DNA of 36,469 nt from Thermomicrobiaceae bacterium (GTDB taxonomy: Bacteria > Chloroflexota > Chloroflexia > Thermomicrobiales > Thermomicrobiaceae), in contig JADBJL010000098.1 in the NCBI GenBank assembly GCA_014874455.1, positions 1 to 36,469 of the forward strand, written 5' to 3'. A program made the translations under genes and the position numbers. Every line of letters begins with the position of its first letter. The first letter of the stretch is position 1. Under the pieces are notes generated by a model. That model saw only the letters and a program-made list of their open reading frames with translations, did not search any database and was not told the DNA's origin. This document shows positions 14 through 15,771 of the stretch, piece by piece.

Positions 14-624
14 CACAGCGGTGACAGCCGAACCACGAGGGCGGTGCCCATGACGCCCAGGCTGCTGACCAGTACCAGCACCAGCCAGAGAGCGACGGCG
101 ATACTGACCGCGGTGGTGGCGCGCGCGGCCCGAGCCGAGACGCACAGGCCGATGGCGAGACTCGCCCAGCCGAGCAGGATCGTCAATCCGGTAAGCAGCA
201 GGAGCGTGAAGGGGCTACGGTGCGAGCCCGCGATTCCCAGGAGCAGCCCGCTTGCGCCGAAGCCAGCGGCGACGGCCGCGGCGAGTGCCAAGCCGAGCCC
301 GAGCGCCTTGCCCAGGTAGACTTCGATGGCCTCAAGCGGCTGTGACAACCAGAAGTCGAGCGATCCCCGCTCGCGTTCGCCGGCCAGGCTCAAGGCGCCC
401 AGCGTGAGGCCCATCAACGGCACGAGCAAGAGCATCACGTTGATGATCCCGGCCGCAGTGCGCCCGAAACCGGTGGCCGGCCCGTATGCGGCGCCCGCCA
501 GCACGAACACGGCCAGCGCGAGGCTCAGCGCCACCAGGCTCACCCCGTAGGCGATGAACCAGCGGTTGCGCAGCGCGTCGCGCACCTCTTTGACTGCCAG
601 CAAGCGGACGGTACTACCACGCAT
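13..624 (-). CDS. nosY: NosY, ABC transporter permease of the NosDFY complex (3' end missing)
   Basis: This is the membrane permease of the NosDFY complex that matures the copper sites of nitrous oxide reductase. About 202 residues are visible, against roughly 270 in the family. Five hydrophobic segments can be seen, with the family hallmark AGERERGSLDFWLSQPL after the second. The start at 624 overlaps the end of the nosD-nosF gene by 11 bp, so the two are translationally coupled; longer upstream starts would run far into that gene. The apparent stop (TGA read from 15-13) uses base 13, which is the last adapter base, so the real codon is TGN and the reading frame very probably continues beyond the contig. 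Family identity is well supported by context and sequence; the truncation is an assembly artefact, not a pseudogene. Confidence 0.87.
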   Translation of the reverse strand: MRGSTVRLLAVKEVRDALRNRWFIAYGVSLVALSLALAVFVLAGAAYGPATGFGRTAAGIINVMLLLVPLMGLTLGALSLAGERERGSLDFWLSQPLEAIEVYLGKALGLGLALAAAVAAGFGASGLLLGIAGSHRSPFTLLLLTGLTILLGWASLAIGLCVSARAARATTAVSIAVALWLVLVLVSSLGVMGTALVVRLSPL

Positions 625-3049
625 CGGCCTCCTCCAGCGCGAAGTCGACAACTCTGATGCCGACCTGTCCCAGCAGCAAGAACGGTTCGGCCTTGCGATC
701 CGGCTCCACCAGCACCCGGAGCAGGCGATCGTGGCGGTAGACCGTGAACCCGTGGGCCTGGAGCAGGTGGCTGGCGGCAACGGCCGCACCGTCTTCCAGT
801 TCGAGCGAGAGCGCCAGGCGCCGCTCGGCAGGCGCTGAAGGCATGAGCACGCGTTGCTCTTGTTGCCGCCCGTACTCGAGGCGGATCACCCGGCTCGCTA
901 GCCGCCAGACGTCCTCGTCTCGATGCGACGTGAAGACGATCGTGCGGCCCCCGTCGCGCAGCGCTTGCAGGTGGCGCAGCAGCTCCTCACGGCTCGTGGC
1001 ATCCAGGTTCGCGGTCGGCTCATCGAGGAAGAGGATCGGCGGGTCACCCACCAGCGCCAGCGCCAGCGCGAGCTTCTGTTGCATGCCCCCGGAGAGCGAT
1101 CGAATCGGCATCGCGCCAGTGTGGCCGAGGCCGAAGCTGGCAAGGCGCTCCCATGACCGCTGGACTGGCTCCCCGCGCAAGGCAGCAACCAGCTCTATCA
1201 GATCGCCGACCTCCAGGTCGAGTGACGGGAGCTGCTGGGGGACGTAGCCGATACGGCTGCGTACCCGCGCTCCGTCACGGAGCGGCGAGAGCCCATCGAT
1301 GCGGATCTCCCCGGTGTAGGAGGTACGGCCGAGCAAGCAGCGTAGCACGGTCGTCTTACCAGCGCCGTTGGGGCCCCAGAGGGCTACTGCCTCCCCCTTG
1401 TGCACGACGAACGAGAGGTCGTCGAGCACCAGTCGCTTGCCGTAGTACTTGGTCACGTGCTCGACCTGGATCACGACCGGGCATCCCACAGTGCCAGGAG
1501 TCAACGGTGCCTGCCGGCGTAGCTCGACGCCCTGCGCAGATTGCTCGCCGCGAGCGCCGTTAGCTCCGATGGAACCTGCCTCGCCAGCGGGTACTGGACG
1601 CACGGTGGGCGCATGGATGCCCATGACTCCCGCCCTCCTGAACAGACGCTTGTGCCAGGGTACCGCCAGGCCGCTGGCGCCGAGAGCGAGCAGACCAACG
1701 GCCAGCAGCGCGTGCGGCCAGCGCGGTTGGCCGCTCGACCACGGTACGGCGGGCCATGCCCCAGGGGCGACCAGCGGTGCTGGATCGGTGACCCGGGGCT
1801 CGGGCCGGAACAGCGGCACGGCGCGGGCGGCCAGGTCGATGGCAGTCGCGGCCAGGCTGAAGCGGAAGAACTGGAGGATCGGGTACCGGTCGGTCATCGA
1901 CTCGAACAGCGGCTCGTCCCGGTAGGGGATATCGCCGACGCCGTCGGCGTCGGCGTCGTATCCCGCATAGTCGCTCCAGAAGTTGCCGCGGCCGTCTTCT
2001 GTCCACTCCAGATCGACCAGACGACCCCCGCCGGAGACGGCTACCGTTTCGAGGTTTTCCAGGATCGTGTTGCCAGCAATCCGGTTGCGGCGCGTGGCCG
2101 GGGTGAGCAGCAGGCCGGTATCGTTATAACTGATCCAGTTGCCGACGATCCGGTTTTCGATCTCGGGGGAGAGCGGCGAGTTGTCGATGTAGATGCCGAC
2201 GCGGTTGCGGTGGATCAGGTTCTGTTCGGCAACGACGCCGTCAGTCTCCTTGATCGCCAGGCCATAGCCTGACGGCCCACGGTTCGCCTGGAGCACGTTG
2301 AAGCGGACAGTCTGCTGCGCGCCGTACATCAGGTAGATCCCGACCGAGTTGTCCTCGATGACGTTCCGCTCGACCAGGCTGCGCTGGCTGTACATGAAGT
2401 GAAGCCCGTAGCGCGCTCGGGTAATATGGTTTCCCTGCACCACCGTGTCGTCGGAATACCAGACCAGGGCATCGCGGATGTCGTGCAGCTCGTTGTCGAG
2501 CACCTGCGCTCTGGGGCTGTACCAGATCTTCAGGCCGTCGCCGCGTGCCGGCTCAGGGAGTTCCTTGCCCACGATCAGGTTGCGCTCGACCCGGCTGTCG
2601 GGCGCGTTCTCGAGGTAGACGCCGAAGAGCGCGTCGAGTACCTGGTTGCCGACGATGGCCGCGCGCGCCGCGCGGACGCGGATGCCGCTGTCCTCGCGGT
2701 CGTGACTCGATCCGCTGCCACGGACGACGAAGCCTTCGAGCCGCACGTCCGGCGCGGAGATGGTGACCACGGTACCCTGGCCACCACCGTCGATGACCGG
2801 CCAGTCGCGGCCGATGAGTGTGAGCGGGCGATCGATGACGAGCGGGCCAGGATAGGTACCTCCGCGTACGTCGAGCGTCGCGCCGGCCGGCGCCTGGCGA
2901 ACGGCGGCGTGGAGATCCTCGAGCGGGCACCCGGGACAGACAGTGAGCGTCGTCTGAGCCCGGGTGTCCGCCGCACCAGTAGGGAGCAGCAAGGTGATGG
3001 CGGTCAAGGCCAGGGCGGCTAGCCGGGCGACCCCGCTCATGACCGTCAC
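614..3049 (-). CDS. nosDF: NosD-NosF fusion: periplasmic beta-helix copper protein joined to ABC ATPase
   Basis: One uninterrupted 811-residue frame covers two proteins that are normally separate. Residues 1-32 are a signal peptide or anchor. Residues about 36-400 are a right-handed beta-helix with many GN.I/V and GIYL/GLHF turns, ending in the NosD-type GNFWSDYAGYDADADGVGD block (356-374) and a DRYPILQF element. Residues 445-464 form a transmembrane helix followed by basic HKRLFRR. A 50-residue low-complexity linker leads to the NosF ATPase: Walker A GPNGAGKTT (559-567), signature LSGGMQQ (652-658), Walker B ILFLDEP (672-678) and the switch histidine in TSHRDED (707-713). Residues 740-811 are an extra C-terminal alpha/beta region. 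The topology is sensible: NosD outside, one helix, ATPase inside. The start overlaps the preceding stop as ATGA. NosDFY is known to deliver copper or mature NosZ; the fusion itself is seen directly. An internal start at Met476 could also release a free NosF. Confidence 0.9.
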   Translation of the reverse strand: MTVMSGVARLAALALTAITLLLPTGAADTRAQTTLTVCPGCPLEDLHAAVRQAPAGATLDVRGGTYPGPLVIDRPLTLIGRDWPVIDGGGQGTVVTISAPDVRLEGFVVRGSGSSHDREDSGIRVRAARAAIVGNQVLDALFGVYLENAPDSRVERNLIVGKELPEPARGDGLKIWYSPRAQVLDNELHDIRDALVWYSDDTVVQGNHITRARYGLHFMYSQRSLVERNVIEDNSVGIYLMYGAQQTVRFNVLQANRGPSGYGLAIKETDGVVAEQNLIHRNRVGIYIDNSPLSPEIENRIVGNWISYNDTGLLLTPATRRNRIAGNTILENLETVAVSGGGRLVDLEWTEDGRGNFWSDYAGYDADADGVGDIPYRDEPLFESMTDRYPILQFFRFSLAATAIDLAARAVPLFRPEPRVTDPAPLVAPGAWPAVPWSSGQPRWPHALLAVGLLALGASGLAVPWHKRLFRRAGVMGIHAPTVRPVPAGEAGSIGANGARGEQSAQGVELRRQAPLTPGTVGCPVVIQVEHVTKYYGKRLVLDDLSFVVHKGEAVALWGPNGAGKTTVLRCLLGRTSYTGEIRIDGLSPLRDGARVRSRIGYVPQQLPSLDLEVGDLIELVAALRGEPVQRSWERLASFGLGHTGAMPIRSLSGGMQQKLALALALVGDPPILFLDEPTANLDATSREELLRHLQALRDGGRTIVFTSHRDEDVWRLASRVIRLEYGRQQEQRVLMPSAPAERRLALSLELEDGAAVAASHLLQAHGFTVYRHDRLLRVLVEPDRKAEPFLLLGQVGIRVVDFALEEADAW
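1622..1639 (-). promoter_or_regulatory. Internal Shine-Dalgarno and ATG inside nosD-nosF
   Basis: On the minus strand AGGAGG (1639-1634) lies 9 nt before an in-frame ATG (1624-1622, Met476). This point is just after the NosD transmembrane helix and before the ATPase linker. It could start a separate 336-residue NosF from the same message. The AGGAGG also encodes Arg-Arg after the helix, so it may be coincidental. Confidence 0.45.
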
Positions 3050-3708
3050 CCCACTTCGACGCGGCGTTGCGAGGGCTGCCAGCGCCGCGCGATCGCGAGC
3101 GCGCTCGCCAACGCGGCCGCGAATGCCAGGTAGAGCCCGGGGCCGAAGCGTGCGATCACCGAGAACTGGCCGACCCGTCCTGTCCCCAGCACCGGTGGGG
3201 TGAAGGGCTTGATCGCACTGCTGAGCGCCGCCGTCGGGTCGAGATGATGTCCGAAGTACCAGAGCCAGTACGCCAGGTCGGCCAGGAAGATCAGCGGGAA
3301 GACGACGACGAGCACCGAGAGCAGCGCTGTCCAGCGCCGTCGCACCGCTGCCGCGAGCGCCGCTACTGCCGCCAGCGCAACGATGCCGAACGGCGCGATC
3401 GCCCGCTCGAAGGTCGCTGCCTCCTCCAGCTTCATCATCCCGATGTAATGGTTGAGGCCGTTGACTTCCGCCACGTCGCCGGCCAATCCCCGCGGGCCGA
3501 GATAGATCGCGACCTTAAGGCCGCCAGGGTACTGCGGCGCGAGGAGCGTCATCTCCCAGTACGGCAGCGCCAGCGAGACGAGCAGCGCGACTGCCGCCAG
3601 CGCGAACAAGATCCGGTCGTTCAGCCGGCTCAGCGCGACGCGTATCACGGGTCGAGCCCCCGCTGGTCGTTCGGTGACGACCGGTGAAGTCGTAACGATC
3701 CGCTCCAT
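3046..3708 (-). CDS. nosB: NosB-like four-helix membrane protein of the nos cluster
   Basis: A 220-residue membrane protein lies directly downstream of nosZ, the position taken by nosB in clade II nos clusters. Four hydrophobic helices are visible (about residues 34-52, 104-122, 128-150 and 190-207). A long loop between the first two probably faces outward and carries a conserved-looking block, APQYPGGLKVAIY, followed by GDVAEVNGLNHYIGM. NosB has no settled biochemical role; it is regarded as an accessory of the clade II N2O reductase system. Its stop overlaps the start of the nosD-nosF frame (ATGA), so the genes are coupled. The name rests on position, size and topology rather than on a catalytic motif; an unnamed nos-associated membrane family is the alternative. 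Confidence 0.6.
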   Translation of the reverse strand: MERIVTTSPVVTERPAGARPVIRVALSRLNDRILFALAAVALLVSLALPYWEMTLLAPQYPGGLKVAIYLGPRGLAGDVAEVNGLNHYIGMMKLEEAATFERAIAPFGIVALAAVAALAAAVRRRWTALLSVLVVVFPLIFLADLAYWLWYFGHHLDPTAALSSAIKPFTPPVLGTGRVGQFSVIARFGPGLYLAFAAALASALAIARRWQPSQRRVEVG

Positions 3709-3766: not shown

Positions 3767-5806
3767 TTACCGCTTCGGCTTGACCAGGAAGTAGCCCATC
3801 ATCTCCAGGTGCAGCGCCGAGCAGAACTCGGTGCAGTAGAACGGGAACGTCCCTGGCATGTCGGCGACGAACGTGAGCGTCTGCGTCTCCCCTGGCTCCA
3901 GGCTGAGGTTGATGTTGTAGCCGCCCAGCGCGAAGCCGTGCGTCGCGTCCTTGGCGCGCTCGATGTTCGTCAGGTGCCAGATCACCTCGTCGCCTTCCTC
4001 GACCTCCACGACGTCGGGCCGGATCTGGCTCCGCAGGAGCACGCCCCAGATCTCGACCGTCTTGCCCCGGCGCTCGATCCGCTCCTCGCCTACTTTCAGC
4101 ACGGCGTTCGGGTCGACGCTCTGGGTCTCCGGATTCCAGCCGACCTCCGGGTAGACGTCCCAGGCCTTGATCCGTTCGGCCTTGATGATCTGCGCATAGT
4201 GCGGCTCGCCGATCCCGATCGGTGAGTCGTAGAGCAGCCGCATCGGCCGGTCTGGGCCGATGTCGACGAGCTGGGCGTTCTGCGGGAGCAGCGGCCCGAG
4301 CAGCGAGAAGCGGTCGACCGACCACTTGTTGTGGGCCACCAGGAACGTGCCTGCCGGCTTCGCGGTATCGCCCTCGACGGCTGCCAGGTGGCCGATGTTG
4401 TAGTGCACCGGCAGCTTCTCGACCAGCTTCCAGCCGTCCTCTCGGTACGGCTTGCCCAGCGCCCAGCGGGCCACCGCGCTGTCGAGGAAGAGGCTGGTAT
4501 AGGCGTAGCCCTGGTCGTCGAACTGGGTGTGCAACGGCCCGAGCCCGAGTTCGACCTGGGCCTCCAGGCACTGCTCGAACGGCAGGATCGGGATGCCGTA
4601 CTCGTCGTGGTCGAACTGGCCGGCGGCGATCGCTTGCTGGATCTTTTCGAAGCTGTAGACCGTCACGTGCGGATCGAGCTTGCCGGCGACCACGATGTAG
4701 TCGCCCCGCGGGGTGACATCGACCCCATGAGGGCTCTTCGGCTCGGGGATCAGGTAGAGGAGCCCTTCCTCGACCGCTGTCTCGATGCGGATCAACTTGA
4801 AGCCCTGGACTTCCTCGTATTTACCGGCCGCGACGACCTGCTCCGCCTTGCGCCAGTTCACGACATGCAGGTAGTCCATGTCGCGCTGGGTGGTCGCCAT
4901 CTCCATCGCTGGCCGGCCCTCGAGGATGCCCGGCACCGCCAGCTCGGTGTTGATCGAGTTCCAGAAGGCCCACCCTTCGGACGGGCCCTTGCCGGCGTCG
5001 GCCAGGTCGTGCCAGTAGGGCGGGGTCTCGATCGCGAACGACTCCTCGGGGACGATCCGGCCCTTCTGGCGGTCGAACTTCCAGAAGGTGAGCACGCCGC
5101 GGTACTTCTCCTTGTACTGGCTGAGCGGTGCGTACTCCCCACCGAGCGGCACCGGGTACTGGTCAGCTTCGAGCACGTACTCGGTATTGGGGGTGACGAA
5201 GCAGCCGCCGTGCTCGTTGACGAGCAGCGGGTTCTTGACGATCTGCTTGGTCTCGAAGTCGCGCAGGTCGATGACCGCGACGCGGCCGTTGGCCTTGTCG
5301 TTGATGAAGAGGAACTGGCCGTCGTACTCGCCGTTCGTCTCGCTCAGCGCCGGATGGTGCGTATCGGCCCAGGTGAGCGGCCGCCCGCGGAAGGAGCCGC
5401 CCTCCAGCACGCGGTTCGGCGAGCCGCCATAGCCATACCCCTGCCACGGCTCCGGGGTAAAGACCGCGATCACCTTCAACAGCCGCATCGACGGGAGCCC
5501 GTGGACGAGTACCTGCCCGCCGTGGCCAGTCGAGGAGAACATCAGGTACTGGTCGTACTTCCCACTCGGCATGTAGGTCATGAGGGCGGCCGTCACGTCC
5601 TCCGGGGTGAGCTGGCGCTGCTTGATTATCTCCTCGGCACTCGCCCCGAGCTTGGGGGTCTCCTTGCGCTGGAGTACGTTGCAGCTCCCCAGCAGCGCGC
5701 TCGCCGCGGGCAGGCTCGCGGCGGCGCCCAGCACGCCGAGGAAGCGTCGACGGCTCACTTTCCGGCGGCGGTCGTACGGTGGATTCGGACGCATCGGCTC
5801 TCGCAT
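3767..5806 (-). CDS. nosZ: Nitrous oxide reductase NosZ (Tat-type signal with possible lipobox)
   Basis: This 679-residue enzyme reduces N2O to N2 in the last step of denitrification, outside the cytoplasmic membrane. All seven CuZ histidines are present: His150-His151 (DTHHP), His199 (NEHGG), His360 (SPHGVD), His426 (PLHTQF), His473 (YNIGH) and His492 (AHNKW). The C-terminal cupredoxin domain holds CuA: His623 (THGFAL), Cys658, Cys662, His666 and Met669 (CTEFCSALHLEM). The HHPALSETNGEYDG block and the neighbouring nosB, nosD, nosF and nosY fit clade II. The start at 5806 has GGAGG 6 nt upstream; a longer frame to 5935 lacks one. The N terminus is unusual: SRRRFLG (18-24) is a twin-arginine motif followed by LLGSC, a possible lipobox with Cys42, whereas clade II enzymes usually carry Sec signals. 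The enzyme should be functional, as no key residue is missing. Confidence 0.97.
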   Translation of the reverse strand: MREPMRPNPPYDRRRKVSRRRFLGVLGAAASLPAASALLGSCNVLQRKETPKLGASAEEIIKQRQLTPEDVTAALMTYMPSGKYDQYLMFSSTGHGGQVLVHGLPSMRLLKVIAVFTPEPWQGYGYGGSPNRVLEGGSFRGRPLTWADTHHPALSETNGEYDGQFLFINDKANGRVAVIDLRDFETKQIVKNPLLVNEHGGCFVTPNTEYVLEADQYPVPLGGEYAPLSQYKEKYRGVLTFWKFDRQKGRIVPEESFAIETPPYWHDLADAGKGPSEGWAFWNSINTELAVPGILEGRPAMEMATTQRDMDYLHVVNWRKAEQVVAAGKYEEVQGFKLIRIETAVEEGLLYLIPEPKSPHGVDVTPRGDYIVVAGKLDPHVTVYSFEKIQQAIAAGQFDHDEYGIPILPFEQCLEAQVELGLGPLHTQFDDQGYAYTSLFLDSAVARWALGKPYREDGWKLVEKLPVHYNIGHLAAVEGDTAKPAGTFLVAHNKWSVDRFSLLGPLLPQNAQLVDIGPDRPMRLLYDSPIGIGEPHYAQIIKAERIKAWDVYPEVGWNPETQSVDPNAVLKVGEERIERRGKTVEIWGVLLRSQIRPDVVEVEEGDEVIWHLTNIERAKDATHGFALGGYNINLSLEPGETQTLTFVADMPGTFPFYCTEFCSALHLEMMGYFLVKPKR

Positions 5807-5952
5807 AGGACCCTCCTCGATGAAAACGATCCGGCTTCTGCCGGTCACGACCGTGTCTTCGATCTCCGAGCCATATGACAGCGCAACCGGCCAGCGACAT
5901 CCACGCCCTCCCGGGTAGTTATGTCCTCTTCTCAAGGGTGGTTTGATCGCCT

Positions 5953-6022: not shown

Positions 6023-6727
6023 CTAGACGCCGGCCGGCGCTGGCAGGCGAGCGCTCCAGCCGAGGGCGAGGTTGACCAGGAATGCCAGGGCCAGCAGCAC
6101 GATCCCCAGCGCGATCGCCAGCGCGAAATTGCCGCGGCCAGTCTCCAGCACGATGGCCGTGGTCAGGATCCGCGTCTGCCCGGCGATGTTGCCGCCCACC
6201 ATCAGCGAGGCGCCGACCTCCGAAATGGCCCGTCCGAAGGCGGCGGCGACGGCGAGCAGTACCTGCGGGAGCGCGGCGCGCACCAGCTCCCAGCCGAGTG
6301 CCAGCCGCCCGGCGCCATCCACCCGCAGGGCGGCCAGGAGGTCGGGCTCCAGCAGGCCGAGCGCTGCCCGCGTGAAGCCAGCGGCGATCGGCGCGGCCAC
6401 CAGGAACTGGGCCAGCGCCATGGCAGATGGGGTATACAGTAATCCCAGCGCTCCGAAGGGGCCGGTGCGCCACAGGAACAGCGTGACCACCAGCCCGACC
6501 AGCACCGGCGGCAATCCCATCCCTGTGCTCACGAGCACCTGGATCAACGCGCGACCGGGGAACTGGCCGATGGCCAGCGCGACCCCCACCGGCACACCCA
6601 CCATAGCCGCCAGCGCGGTCGCAGTCAGCGACACCATGAGCGAGCGCAGGACGAGTTGCCGCAGCTCAGGATCGGCGCGGAGGATCAGGCGAACCGCTTC
6701 GATCAGCCCATCCCACAGCAGATCCAT
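6023..6727 (-). CDS. tupB: Tungstate/molybdate ABC transporter permease TupB
   Basis: A 234-residue inner-membrane permease with about five or six hydrophobic helices. The cytoplasmic coupling segment near residues 150-180 (LVRAALPQVLLAVAAAFGRAISEVGASLMVGGNI) has the EAA-loop pattern, here with GRAISEVG, typical of the TupB/WtpB/ModB group; the first 20 residues of that stretch lead into the loop. Length matches TupB. It starts 6 bp after the stop of the binding protein gene, so the two form one operon. The cognate ATPase TupC is not next to it: the next gene is nosZ. The permease must use an ATPase encoded elsewhere or shared with another transporter. Oxyanion specificity (W or Mo) comes from the TupA partner, not from this sequence. 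Confidence 0.88.
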   Translation of the reverse strand: MDLLWDGLIEAVRLILRADPELRQLVLRSLMVSLTATALAAMVGVPVGVALAIGQFPGRALIQVLVSTGMGLPPVLVGLVVTLFLWRTGPFGALGLLYTPSAMALAQFLVAAPIAAGFTRAALGLLEPDLLAALRVDGAGRLALGWELVRAALPQVLLAVAAAFGRAISEVGASLMVGGNIAGQTRILTTAIVLETGRGNFALAIALGIVLLALAFLVNLALGWSARLPAPAGV

Positions 6728-6733
6728 AGCGCG

Positions 6734-7627
6734 CTACCGGCCGAGCTGCTCTTCGGCCTTACCGGCGTCGGGGACGAAGAGCGGCTGGCCGAACTGCTCG
6801 CGGCCGAACTCGGCGATCGCCTGCTGGGCCTCCGGGGAGACCAGGAACTGGGCGAAGGCTCGACCGCCCTCGACGTTGATCTGCCCCTCGGGGAACCGCG
6901 CCGGGTTGATCGTGATCACATGGTAGAGGTTCAGCAGCATGGGATCGCCCTCGACCAGAACGTCCAGATCGACGCGCCCCCGGTACGCCAGGAACGTGCC
7001 CCGATCCGAGAGGGTGTAGGCCCGCTTCTGGTCGGTGAGGGTCAGCGTAGCGCCCATGCCCTGGCCGGAGGTGATGTACCAGGGTGCCCCCTTGGGGCTC
7101 AGCCCGGCTTCCCGCCAGAGCCGCTTCTCGAGCTGGTCGGTGCCCGAGCCGTCGTCGCGGCTGATCCAGGTCGCCTGCGCGGCCGCGATCTTCCGCAAGG
7201 CGTCCACGGCCGAGCGCAGGCCGCGGATCCCGGCCGGGTCATCCGGCGGGCCGAGAATGACGAAGTCGTTGTGCATCACCAGCAGGCGCTCCGATCCATA
7301 GCCCTGCGCCATGAACTCGCGCTCCGCCTCGGGCGCATGAACCAGTACCACATCGGCTTCGCCGCGCGCGGCCATCGCCAGCGCCGCGCCGGTTCCGACA
7401 GCGATCGGCTTCACCCGGTAGCCCGTCCGCTCCTCGAACAGCGGCACCAGCACGTCCAGGAGCCCGCTGTCCTGCACGCTGGTGGTCGTGGCCAGAATGA
7501 GCTCCCGGCGCTCGCTCCGCTCATGGCCGCGCGACCGGAGTGCGAAGAGGGCGCTGCCGGTGAGGATGACCGCGAGCACCACAGACCCCAGAACGGTGAG
7601 AGCGATTCTCACCGGCTTGTCTCTCAC
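6734..7627 (-). CDS. tupA: Tungstate-binding protein TupA
   Basis: A 297-residue extracytoplasmic solute-binding protein. Residues 8-30 form an uncleaved-looking hydrophobic anchor. The mature part begins with ILATTTSVQDSGLLD, the TTTS oxyanion-binding signature of TupA proteins. It continues with the type II binding-protein blocks PIAVGTGAALAMAARGEAD, VHAPEAE and SRDDGSGTDQLEKRLW, which line the anion pocket in this family. It delivers tungstate, and possibly molybdate, to TupB. These metals are needed for molybdopterin enzymes such as nitrate reductase or formate dehydrogenase, which would feed the respiration pathway next door; that link is inference. The start at 7627 lies 16 bp after the DUF6069 gene stop. 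No lipobox cysteine is present. Confidence 0.9.
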   Translation of the reverse strand: MRDKPVRIALTVLGSVVLAVILTGSALFALRSRGHERSERRELILATTTSVQDSGLLDVLVPLFEERTGYRVKPIAVGTGAALAMAARGEADVVLVHAPEAEREFMAQGYGSERLLVMHNDFVILGPPDDPAGIRGLRSAVDALRKIAAAQATWISRDDGSGTDQLEKRLWREAGLSPKGAPWYITSGQGMGATLTLTDQKRAYTLSDRGTFLAYRGRVDLDVLVEGDPMLLNLYHVITINPARFPEGQINVEGGRAFAQFLVSPEAQQAIAEFGREQFGQPLFVPDAGKAEEQLGR

Positions 7628-13186: not shown

Positions 13187-15007
13187 TCAGGGCCGGTCGA
13201 CCGGGCACCGGGCATCGAGGCTACCCGGTCGCCAGCGTTGCCAGGCCTGGATGAACTCTCCGGGCGTCAGGGGGGTAGCAGCGAGCCCGAGGGCGCGCGC
13301 CAGCCGGAGCGTCGCCGGCGGCTCGAGCCCGGCCTCGTGGAGCAGCTCCGTCCGGGCGAAGACCGCGCGCGTCGAGCCGGCGGCTAAGACCTCACCCCGC
13401 GCCAGCACGACGACCTGGGGGCAGTAGCTAGCCACGAACTCCATGTCGTGGGTGATCACGATGACGAGCCGGCCCTCGGCCTGAAGCTCCCGAACCAACC
13501 GGCCGATCCGCTCGACTCCCGGGTGATCCTGAGCGATCGTCGGCTCGTCGAGAATCAGGATCGGGGTCTGCATGGCCAGCACGGACGCCAGCGCCAGCAT
13601 CTTGCGCTGCCCCAGGCTGAGGTCATAGGGGTTCTCCTCGGCCAGCTCGGCCAGACCGACACGCTCCAGCGCCGCGCGCGCCCGCTGCTCGGCCTCGCGC
13701 GGTGGCAGGCCGAGGTTGAGCGCGCCGAACATCGCCTCGTCGAGCGCCCGGCTCTTGAAGAGCTGGTCGTCGGGGTTCTGGAACACCAGCCCGACCGTCC
13801 GGGCGATCTGCGCCGCCGTGCGTCGGCGAATGGTCTGCCCGTCGATCAGGATCTCTCCGGCCTGGGGTCGGAGCAACCCGGCGACCAGCTTGACCAGTGT
13901 CGTCTTGCCCGCCCCGTTCTCGCCGATGAGCGCGATCGGCCCCGGGCCTGCCGCGACGTGTCGGGTGCCCGCGGCCCGAACTCCTCGCCCGGTGTCGCCC
14001 AGCGCCAGGCTCAGCCCCTCGAACACACGCGTGCCATCGGGGTAGGCGAACTGGACGTCCTGCAGCGCGATGGCCGGCGCGACGGCAGGAGGTGGGAGCT
14101 GTTCGTCCCGTCGCGCGGGGGGCTCCATCGCGTGCGCCAGGAGCGTGCCGCTCGCCTCGACGAGAGGTTGTGCCGCGCGCAGCGCGGCCGCGACGTGCTC
14201 AACCGTCAGGGGGAGAGCGCCGCTCGCCGTCCGGGCCGCGAAGTGAGCCGCGATCTGAACGTGTGCAGGAAGCGCGAGACCGCAGGCTTGGAACAGCCCC
14301 GACTCCAGAACCTCGCTCGGCGTACGACAGGCCTGGACTCGGCCTGCCGCGAGCAGCAGGAGCCGATCGGCGTGCTCCAGCAGCCGCTCCAGCTTGTGCT
14401 CGACCATTACGACGGTCAGGCCCCTTGCTCGAAGGCGGGCGATGCAGTCGAAGACCTCGATGGTGCCGCGGGGGTCGAGTTGCGAGGTCGGCTCGTCGAG
14501 GACGAGCACGTCCGGGCGCTGGGCGAGCATGCAGGCGATGGCGAGGCGCTGGAGTTCTCCGCCGGAGAGGAGGAACGGGTTCTTCTCCCGCAAGTGGGTG
14601 ATGCCGACCTGCTCCATCGCCCATTCGACCCAATGCCGCATCTCATCTCGGGGCACGCCGAAGTTCTCCAGGCCGAAGGCGACCTCCTCCTCGACCGTGA
14701 GCCGTGCGCCCGAGAGCTGGGTGAACGGGTTCTGCAGGACAATGCCGACGCGCCTCGCCAGCTCGTGCACGGGGGTGTGCCCGGCGTCCATCCCGGCCAC
14801 GACGACGCGCCCCTCGTACCGGCCCCGGAAGAACTGCGGCACGAGCCCGAGCAGCGCATAGCAGAGAGTCGACTTGCCGGCCAGGTTTGGCCCCACGATG
14901 CCGAAGAACTGGCCGGTCTCGACCGTGAACGAGACATCGTCGAGCGCGTTTGTCCGCCCGGTGGGATAGCGGTAGGTCAAGCCCTGGACATCGATGATGC
15001 CGGTCAC
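13187..15007 (-). CDS. ECF transporter ATPase with two fused ABC domains
   Basis: A 606-residue protein with two complete ABC domains that powers an energy-coupling-factor importer. Domain 1: Walker A GPNLAGKST (39-47), signature LSGGELQ (147-153), Walker B VLVLDEP (167-173), switch His204. Domain 2: Walker A GENGAGKTT (362-370), signature LSLGQRK (463-469), Walker B ILILDEP (483-489) and VITHDME. The LSLGQ signature lacks the second glycine, seen in some ECF ATPases. A 20-residue insertion sits just before the second Walker A. The GTG start at 15007 overlaps the ecfT stop as GTGA and gives a first residue right before IIDVQGLTYRYP; longer starts would lie inside ecfT. It replaces the usual EcfA/EcfA' heterodimer by a single chain. 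Confidence 0.9.
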   Translation of the reverse strand: MTGIIDVQGLTYRYPTGRTNALDDVSFTVETGQFFGIVGPNLAGKSTLCYALLGLVPQFFRGRYEGRVVVAGMDAGHTPVHELARRVGIVLQNPFTQLSGARLTVEEEVAFGLENFGVPRDEMRHWVEWAMEQVGITHLREKNPFLLSGGELQRLAIACMLAQRPDVLVLDEPTSQLDPRGTIEVFDCIARLRARGLTVVMVEHKLERLLEHADRLLLLAAGRVQACRTPSEVLESGLFQACGLALPAHVQIAAHFAARTASGALPLTVEHVAAALRAAQPLVEASGTLLAHAMEPPARRDEQLPPPAVAPAIALQDVQFAYPDGTRVFEGLSLALGDTGRGVRAAGTRHVAAGPGPIALIGENGAGKTTLVKLVAGLLRPQAGEILIDGQTIRRRTAAQIARTVGLVFQNPDDQLFKSRALDEAMFGALNLGLPPREAEQRARAALERVGLAELAEENPYDLSLGQRKMLALASVLAMQTPILILDEPTIAQDHPGVERIGRLVRELQAEGRLVIVITHDMEFVASYCPQVVVLARGEVLAAGSTRAVFARTELLHEAGLEPPATLRLARALGLAATPLTPGEFIQAWQRWRPGSLDARCPVDRP

Positions 15008-15771
15008 CGGGCGAGCCTCCAGATCAGCGCCAGGAGCAAAGCGGAGACGGCTGCAAGCCGCGCTGGCCAGGCCAACCGGTGTCGCCACGGCAGCCGGTAG
15101 GAGGTGCGCGGCCCGGGTGCACCGAATCCGCGGACTTCGAGCGCCAGTGCCCGCTCCTGCATAGCGACCAGCGAGGAGATGACCAGTGGCCCGAGCACCG
15201 GTAGCAAGGCACGCACGCGCACCCACACCGGCCCCTCCGTCTCCATGCCACGGGAGCGCTGGGCATCCTGAATCACCGAGATCCGGGCAGCCATGGAAGG
15301 GATGATCTGGAGCACCGAGAGCAGCACGTAGCCGACCCGCGGCGGCAGGCCGGCCTGCACCAGCTCTTCCACCAGATCGGCTGGTCGGGTCGTGAACAGG
15401 AGGACGAACGCAGACAATGTCAGGTTAACGAAGCGCGCCGTCAGCCAGAGCGCGTAGGCCAGCCCCTCCAAATACAGCACGAGCGGGCCGATGCGTACGA
15501 GCGGCGTCACGTTCCCGGGGTAGACCATGCCTTGGACGACGAAGAGCGTTACCAGGAAAAAACCCACCCCAGCGAGCGCAATCAGGCCCTCGCGAAGGAC
15601 TCGCCCGATGGCCAGCAGAACGACGTTGCCGACGATGACGACGAAGGCAACGCGCAGGTCGCCCGCAACGAACGGTACCAGCGCGAGGCAGACGGCGTAG
15701 ACCAGTTTGCTGATCGGGTCGAGGGCATGGAGCGGGCTCCGCCGCTCGACGTACAGGCCGACGGGGCGCAT
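15004..15771 (-). CDS. ecfT: ECF transporter transmembrane T component
   Basis: A 255-residue EcfT-type scaffold protein. It begins with the family's YVERRSPLHALDPISKL, a CbiQ/EcfT N-terminal signature, followed by about five hydrophobic helices. The coupling-helix region near residues 165-200 (ISVIQDAQRSRGMETEG) contains the ARG/SRG-type motif that docks on the ATPases, and a second LALEVRGFGAPG motif lies near 215-226. It lies 14 bp after the S-component gene and overlaps the ATPase gene by 4 bp, so the order is S-T-A in one operon. It links substrate capture by the S component to ATP hydrolysis. Confidence 0.9.
   Translation of the reverse strand: MRPVGLYVERRSPLHALDPISKLVYAVCLALVPFVAGDLRVAFVVIVGNVVLLAIGRVLREGLIALAGVGFFLVTLFVVQGMVYPGNVTPLVRIGPLVLYLEGLAYALWLTARFVNLTLSAFVLLFTTRPADLVEELVQAGLPPRVGYVLLSVLQIIPSMAARISVIQDAQRSRGMETEGPVWVRVRALLPVLGPLVISSLVAMQERALALEVRGFGAPGPRTSYRLPWRHRLAWPARLAAVSALLLALIWRLAR

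Follow-up and report, generated by a model that had tools for sequence, protein, structure and literature searches.

The window analyzed here is a stretch of 36,469 nucleotides from a Thermomicrobiaceae bacterium (GCA_014874455.1, contig JADBJL010000098.1) that carries a nos gene cluster on the minus strand. The gene nosDF (positions 614–3049) is an open frame of 811 codons without a stop, or of 808 codons from the ATG at 3040. This ATG, codon 4, is as good a start candidate as the GTG at 3049, and the T. roseum annotation has a 4-base gap instead of an overlap at the nosD start. The product begins with a signal peptide region (positions 2957–3049, residues ~1–31, MSGVARLAALALTAITLLLP..), which appears as a hydropathy peak at residues 3–21 and as a model helix at residues 6–21. 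The NosD beta-helix domain follows (positions 1769–2914, residues 46–427). It passes the TIGR04247 cut-off of 300 bits with 409.3 bits, its sequence matches chain 7o0y_A at 1e-36, and its predicted fold aligns with the same chain over 353 residues (Z 40.1, rmsd 3.8).

A single transmembrane helix (positions 1643–1720, residues 444–469) leads from NosD into a low-complexity, predicted cytosolic linker (positions 1478–1642, residues 470–524, pLDDT 24–32). Hydropathy finds two hydrophobic stretches in the whole product, the signal peptide and residues 447–465. Charge was compared before and after the helix, and the basic residues directly behind it (HKRLFRR) place the C terminus inside. The remainder is a NosF ATPase with a nucleotide-binding domain (NBD) and a C-terminal domain (positions 617–1477, residues 525–811). 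The ABC_tran family (PF00005) matches residues 542–680 with 96.7 bits, and chain 7o0y_B is matched at 4e-28. All ABC motifs are present: Walker A (GPNGAGKT, 559), LSGG (652), Walker B (LFLDEP, 673) and the H-loop (SHR, 708). The Walker B motif includes the catalytic glutamate, which presumably corresponds to E154, the residue replaced in the inactive E154Q variant of NosF (PMC11573801). A model named NosF was absent among the best 25 NCBIfam matches, and the 7o0y NosF chain was missing among the best 50 fold-search matches, which were filled by other ABC ATPases. The putative NosF identity is drawn from the position in the cluster and the 7o0y_B match.

The single-chain AlphaFold2 model, built on an alignment of 18 sequences, has a beta-helix at residues 34–338, a helix at 444–469, a stretch at 465–522 with pLDDT below 50, and an NBD from residue 525 followed by a small C-terminal domain. 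The original prediction had described one polypeptide in which NosD and NosF are joined by one transmembrane helix and a low-complexity linker, and each element is borne out. The frame is unbroken with both domains present and is common to relatives; hydropathy, the model helix and the positive charge behind it agree on one helix with the C terminus inside; and the linker of ~55 residues is predicted to be disordered.

The neighboring genes also belong to the nos locus. A partial nosY permease gene (positions 14–624, minus strand; ABC2_membrane_2) runs to the contig end, and its product is 95% identical to the complete NosY of genome G012, which matches NosY chain 7o0y_D at 4e-16. The first 11 bases of nosY are also the last 11 of nosDF, an overlap of the same length as in T. 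roseum. Positions 1–13, at the contig end, are GCTCTTCCGATCT, the end of an Illumina adapter. Adapter bases create the stop at which the nosY frame seems to end, and the G012 NosY runs ~70 residues further. On the other side, a gene for a 220-residue membrane protein with four hydrophobic stretches (positions 3046–3708, minus strand) lies between nosDF and nosZ. It contains YLGPRGLAGDVAEVNGLNHYIGM and has no Pfam or NCBIfam family, the closest being a weak VKOR-like match (E 0.11). A four-helix protein sits between nosZ and nosD in every compared cluster, fused or unfused, including the Krumholzibacteriia one, and the product is a candidate for an unnamed N2O-reductase factor.

The nosZ gene (positions 3767–5935, minus strand), two genes upstream of nosDF, encodes a nitrous oxide reductase of the TIGR04246 (clade II) type, with 903 bits against a cut-off of 625. 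Its N-terminal region, SRRRFLGVLGAAASLPAASALLGSC, has a twin-arginine motif and a lipobox despite the "Sec-dependent" label of TIGR04246, and the NosZ N termini of close relatives are similar. From these motifs NosZ may be a Tat-exported lipoprotein. Next to nosZ, positions 6023–7627 encode a permease and a binding protein resembling the tungstate proteins TupB and TupA, both below the curated thresholds (148 bits against 320 and 210 bits against 400), and no ATPase was seen directly beside the pair. A second fusion in the window is a 679-residue frame at 13187–15226 that combines ECF_ATPase_1 and ECF_ATPase_2.

The nosD–nosF junction in relatives

Eleven genomes of the family carry nosD, and the junction is open into NosF in ten. 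The fusion is full-length in eight of the eleven; G011 and G018 are open into NosF up to the contig end, and the eleventh genome, G014, is open up to a contig end within the linker. Because ten genomes of the same family are open there, the open junction is more than chance. The conservation extends from the two nearest genomes, independent assemblies of the same genus (90% and 88% identical), to another genus (~60%) and a third genus (45%). The megaplasmid of T. roseum DSM 5159 has one 2352-base coding sequence named only "NosD" and no separate ATPase; the permease gene follows with its 11-base overlap, and then nosL. S. thermophilus probably also carries the fusion.

A missing or wrong base that erased a real stop in the linker was considered as the source of the long frame. 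The genome is a draft, adapter sequence stands at the window's start at a contig end, and one relative, L094, does carry a frameshift near the NosD end. Against this, the junction is likewise open in the independent assemblies of the genus, in genome G009, which consists of two contigs, and in the reference record for T. roseum. Sequencing or assembly error is hardly credible here, and it is ruled out for the family by the relatives and the T. roseum record. Locus L094 (genome G122) had been taken as a separate pair beside the fused L087, an assignment that was rejected. The frameshift lies close to where the NosD core ends, at about 2470–2590 on the reverse strand, and the helix, linker and NosF of L094 form one open frame. 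The fused gene of G122 is broken or misassembled at that place.

Fused and separate genes in Chloroflexota

The Chloroflexota loci compared comprise 22 distinct fused frames reaching NosF, from this family and from others, and about 25 separate pairs, in which the nosF start mostly lies within −16 to +78 bases of the nosD stop. Of the 24 unfused NosDs whose tail is of testable length, 23 have a hydrophobic helix at the C-terminal end that is followed by positive charge, and positive charge behind the helix is found in both the fused and the unfused group. The five NosDs of Bacillus azotoformans are all reported to have a putative C-terminal transmembrane helix (PMC3475470). The idea that a single helix makes the fusion topologically possible holds, but the helix is no peculiarity of fused proteins, since it is also present in unfused NosDs of Chloroflexota. 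Since these proteins already possess a helix and a basic cytosolic tail, fusion would be mostly stop loss at an operon joint. Judged from the sequences, an in-frame stop loss or a small indel alone appears to be required, with no topological invention. The short joint between nosD and nosF would have lost its stop codon, and this would be harmless as NosD already ended in a helix and a cytosolic tail.

A tree was built from an alignment of NosD and NosF that excluded the linker and had 48 rows and 651 columns. It requires eight changes between the fused and the separate state, in which gains and losses are inseparable; at least five are forced by well-supported branches, the bootstrap range is 6–8, and the exact number is uncertain because the singletons L037 and L040 come from metagenome bins and may contain errors. 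Recoding L094 as fused leaves the count at eight. A single fused clade with a single origin was rejected (p-AU 0.00017). A five-member Anaerolineae-type clade keeps the fusion throughout. On this tree, the fusion appears to have come and gone repeatedly in Chloroflexota. Separate genes with a stop preserved at this place do occur in relatives, but those relatives are members of other families or orders, and the pattern reflects repeated fusion and splitting, not error.

Outside this phylum, the search covered two further phyla and the best plasmid matches listed, and no fused frame was found: there were none among 116 NosD frames in the phylum to which G504 belongs, which was entered by way of an Ignavibacteriales locus and is taken to be Bacteroidota (the longest, at 644 residues, is too short), and none among three in the phylum of G507. 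The best plasmid matches listed outside Thermomicrobium are in two pieces, with NosD and the ATPase separate where annotated.

Linker length in the fused genes ranges from ~18 to ~60 residues, and the linker combines fast amino-acid change with no frame-breaking changes. Within the window genus the linker changes by codon position are 9/7/11, without a clear third-position excess, and between L007 and L009 they are 6/3/15, a clearer excess at the third position. A third-position excess was not accepted as proof of linker translation, being weak in the window genus. By these comparisons the linker of the window genus is constrained in frame and hardly in sequence. The fusion had also been expected to fix the geometry of the complex. 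This does not hold for a linker that is predicted to be disordered, variable in length and fast-evolving; such a long, loose linker would tether NosD and not position it.

Predicted subunit ratio and function of the fused chain

Chain counts in the PDB are 16 NosD in 16 entries, 30 NosF in 15 and 34 NosY in 17, which point to 1 NosD:2 NosF:2 NosY in the deposited NosDFY complexes. NosD and NosF on one chain give a NosD to NosF ratio of 1:1, at odds with the 1:2:2 of the solved complex. The claim that the fusion fixes the stoichiometry is thus right for this pair; it goes no further than that, and it conflicts with the deposited ratio. This leaves three outcomes for the fused chain: a D2F2Y2 complex, an idle NosD, or cleavage.

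We regard an uncut, working fusion with two tethered NosD heads on NosF and NosY dimers as rather probable. We infer copper transfer as the function of an uncut D2F2Y2 complex from homology and from the neighboring nosZ, nosY and, in T. roseum, nosL. The gene would yield one inner-membrane protein. Its signal peptide would export NosD, the C-terminal helix would keep NosD tethered, and the chain would continue through the flexible linker into cytosolic NosF. On the pattern of other NosDFY transporters, two NosF parts would pair up on a NosY dimer, and each machine would bear two tethered NosD heads (D2F2Y2) and not one (D1F2Y2). ATP use by NosF would move NosY, NosY would act on the docked NosD as it does elsewhere, and copper from NosL would be handed on to NosZ.

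Separate or mixed products would restore D1F2Y2, either through translation that begins internally at the former nosF start or through proteolysis of the linker. The 1:2:2 ratio of the solved complex and the predicted disorder of the linker would fit such a scheme, and a start codon is kept at −9 to +1 in 16 of the 22 fused genes, in the window genus as a GTG (window positions 1472–1474, minus strand). However, the other six lack any start codon in the range tested, and the ribosome-binding signal is gone from the fused genes. The median ribosome-binding energy at the nosF start is −8.4 kcal/mol in separate genes and −3.6 kcal/mol in fused genes (p = 0.001). Fused genes do not differ from random internal nosD start codons (−2.8; p = 0.12), whereas separate genes do (p = 9e-10); these p-values are optimistic, because related rows are not independent. 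The window GTG has a weak signal (−4.0 kcal/mol). The exception is locus L099 of G342, which retains a GTG with a strong signal (−9.5) and may keep a dedicated start for free NosF. With these GTGs retained, a little free NosF may still be made in the window genus and in G342. The loss of the signal in fused genes makes a dedicated free NosF unlikely as a general feature, and with the signal at the level of random codons, an internal start has no support as a conserved feature. Overall, a return to D1F2Y2 through separate products is quite unlikely.

The uncut chain is compatible with a neutral origin, in which a stop loss was tolerated, the machine is unchanged with one docked NosD, the second NosD is idle and no advantage is gained. 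This account is quite plausible, if a little short of an even chance, and neutral stop loss accounts for the sequence data equally well. It agrees with the closeness or overlap of the two genes in unfused relatives, with the pre-existing helix, with about eight state changes on the tree and with a fast-evolving linker of variable length. On the other hand, every informative genome of the family has retained the fusion, even between genera about 45% identical, and so has the whole five-member Anaerolineae-type clade, although selection is not thereby shown. A more specific form of the two-headed complex, in which the NosD heads of D2F2Y2 alternate between copper loading and hand-over to the NosZ dimer and which was selected several times in Chloroflexota, is doubtful. 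If true, the alternating cycle would be one that is impossible for a one-headed D1F2Y2 complex.

Comparison with known systems

NosDFY supplies copper to nitrous oxide reductase, which breaks down the greenhouse gas N2O, and a solved complex containing a single NosD shows how cytosolic ATP use is coupled to the handling of copper on the outer side. The presence of the fusion in cultured thermophiles (T. roseum and probably S. thermophilus) makes the requirement for one NosD directly testable. Public records already list the fused protein as NosD, without remark, and a description of a NosD–NosF fusion was not found in the open-licence literature. Some annotated NosD proteins thus hide a NosF, and surveys that count nosF may wrongly call N2O reducers ATPase-less.

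The fused locus shares with NosDFY (PDB 7o0y and related entries) the NosD beta-helix, the NosF ABC motifs and a NosY-like permease, with nosZ nearby and, in T. roseum, nosL following. It differs from 7o0y, where NosD and NosF are separate chains, in that both lie in a single open frame with a transmembrane helix, so that D:F is 1:1 and not 1:2. Bacillus azotoformans also differs, with nosD, nosY and nosF as separate genes (PMC3475470). The unfused Chloroflexota pairs (e.g., L039, L076, L096 and L097) have the same order, nosZ–membrane protein–nosD–nosF–nosY, and their NosD likewise ends in a helix and a basic tail, but they have a stop and a nosF start of its own, usually with a ribosome-binding signal. 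In ABC importers of the OpuA type, the binding protein is fused to the permease, which gives two outside domains per complex. OpuA and nosDF both tie an outside domain covalently to the transporter, OpuA to the permease and nosDF to the ATPase through an added helix.
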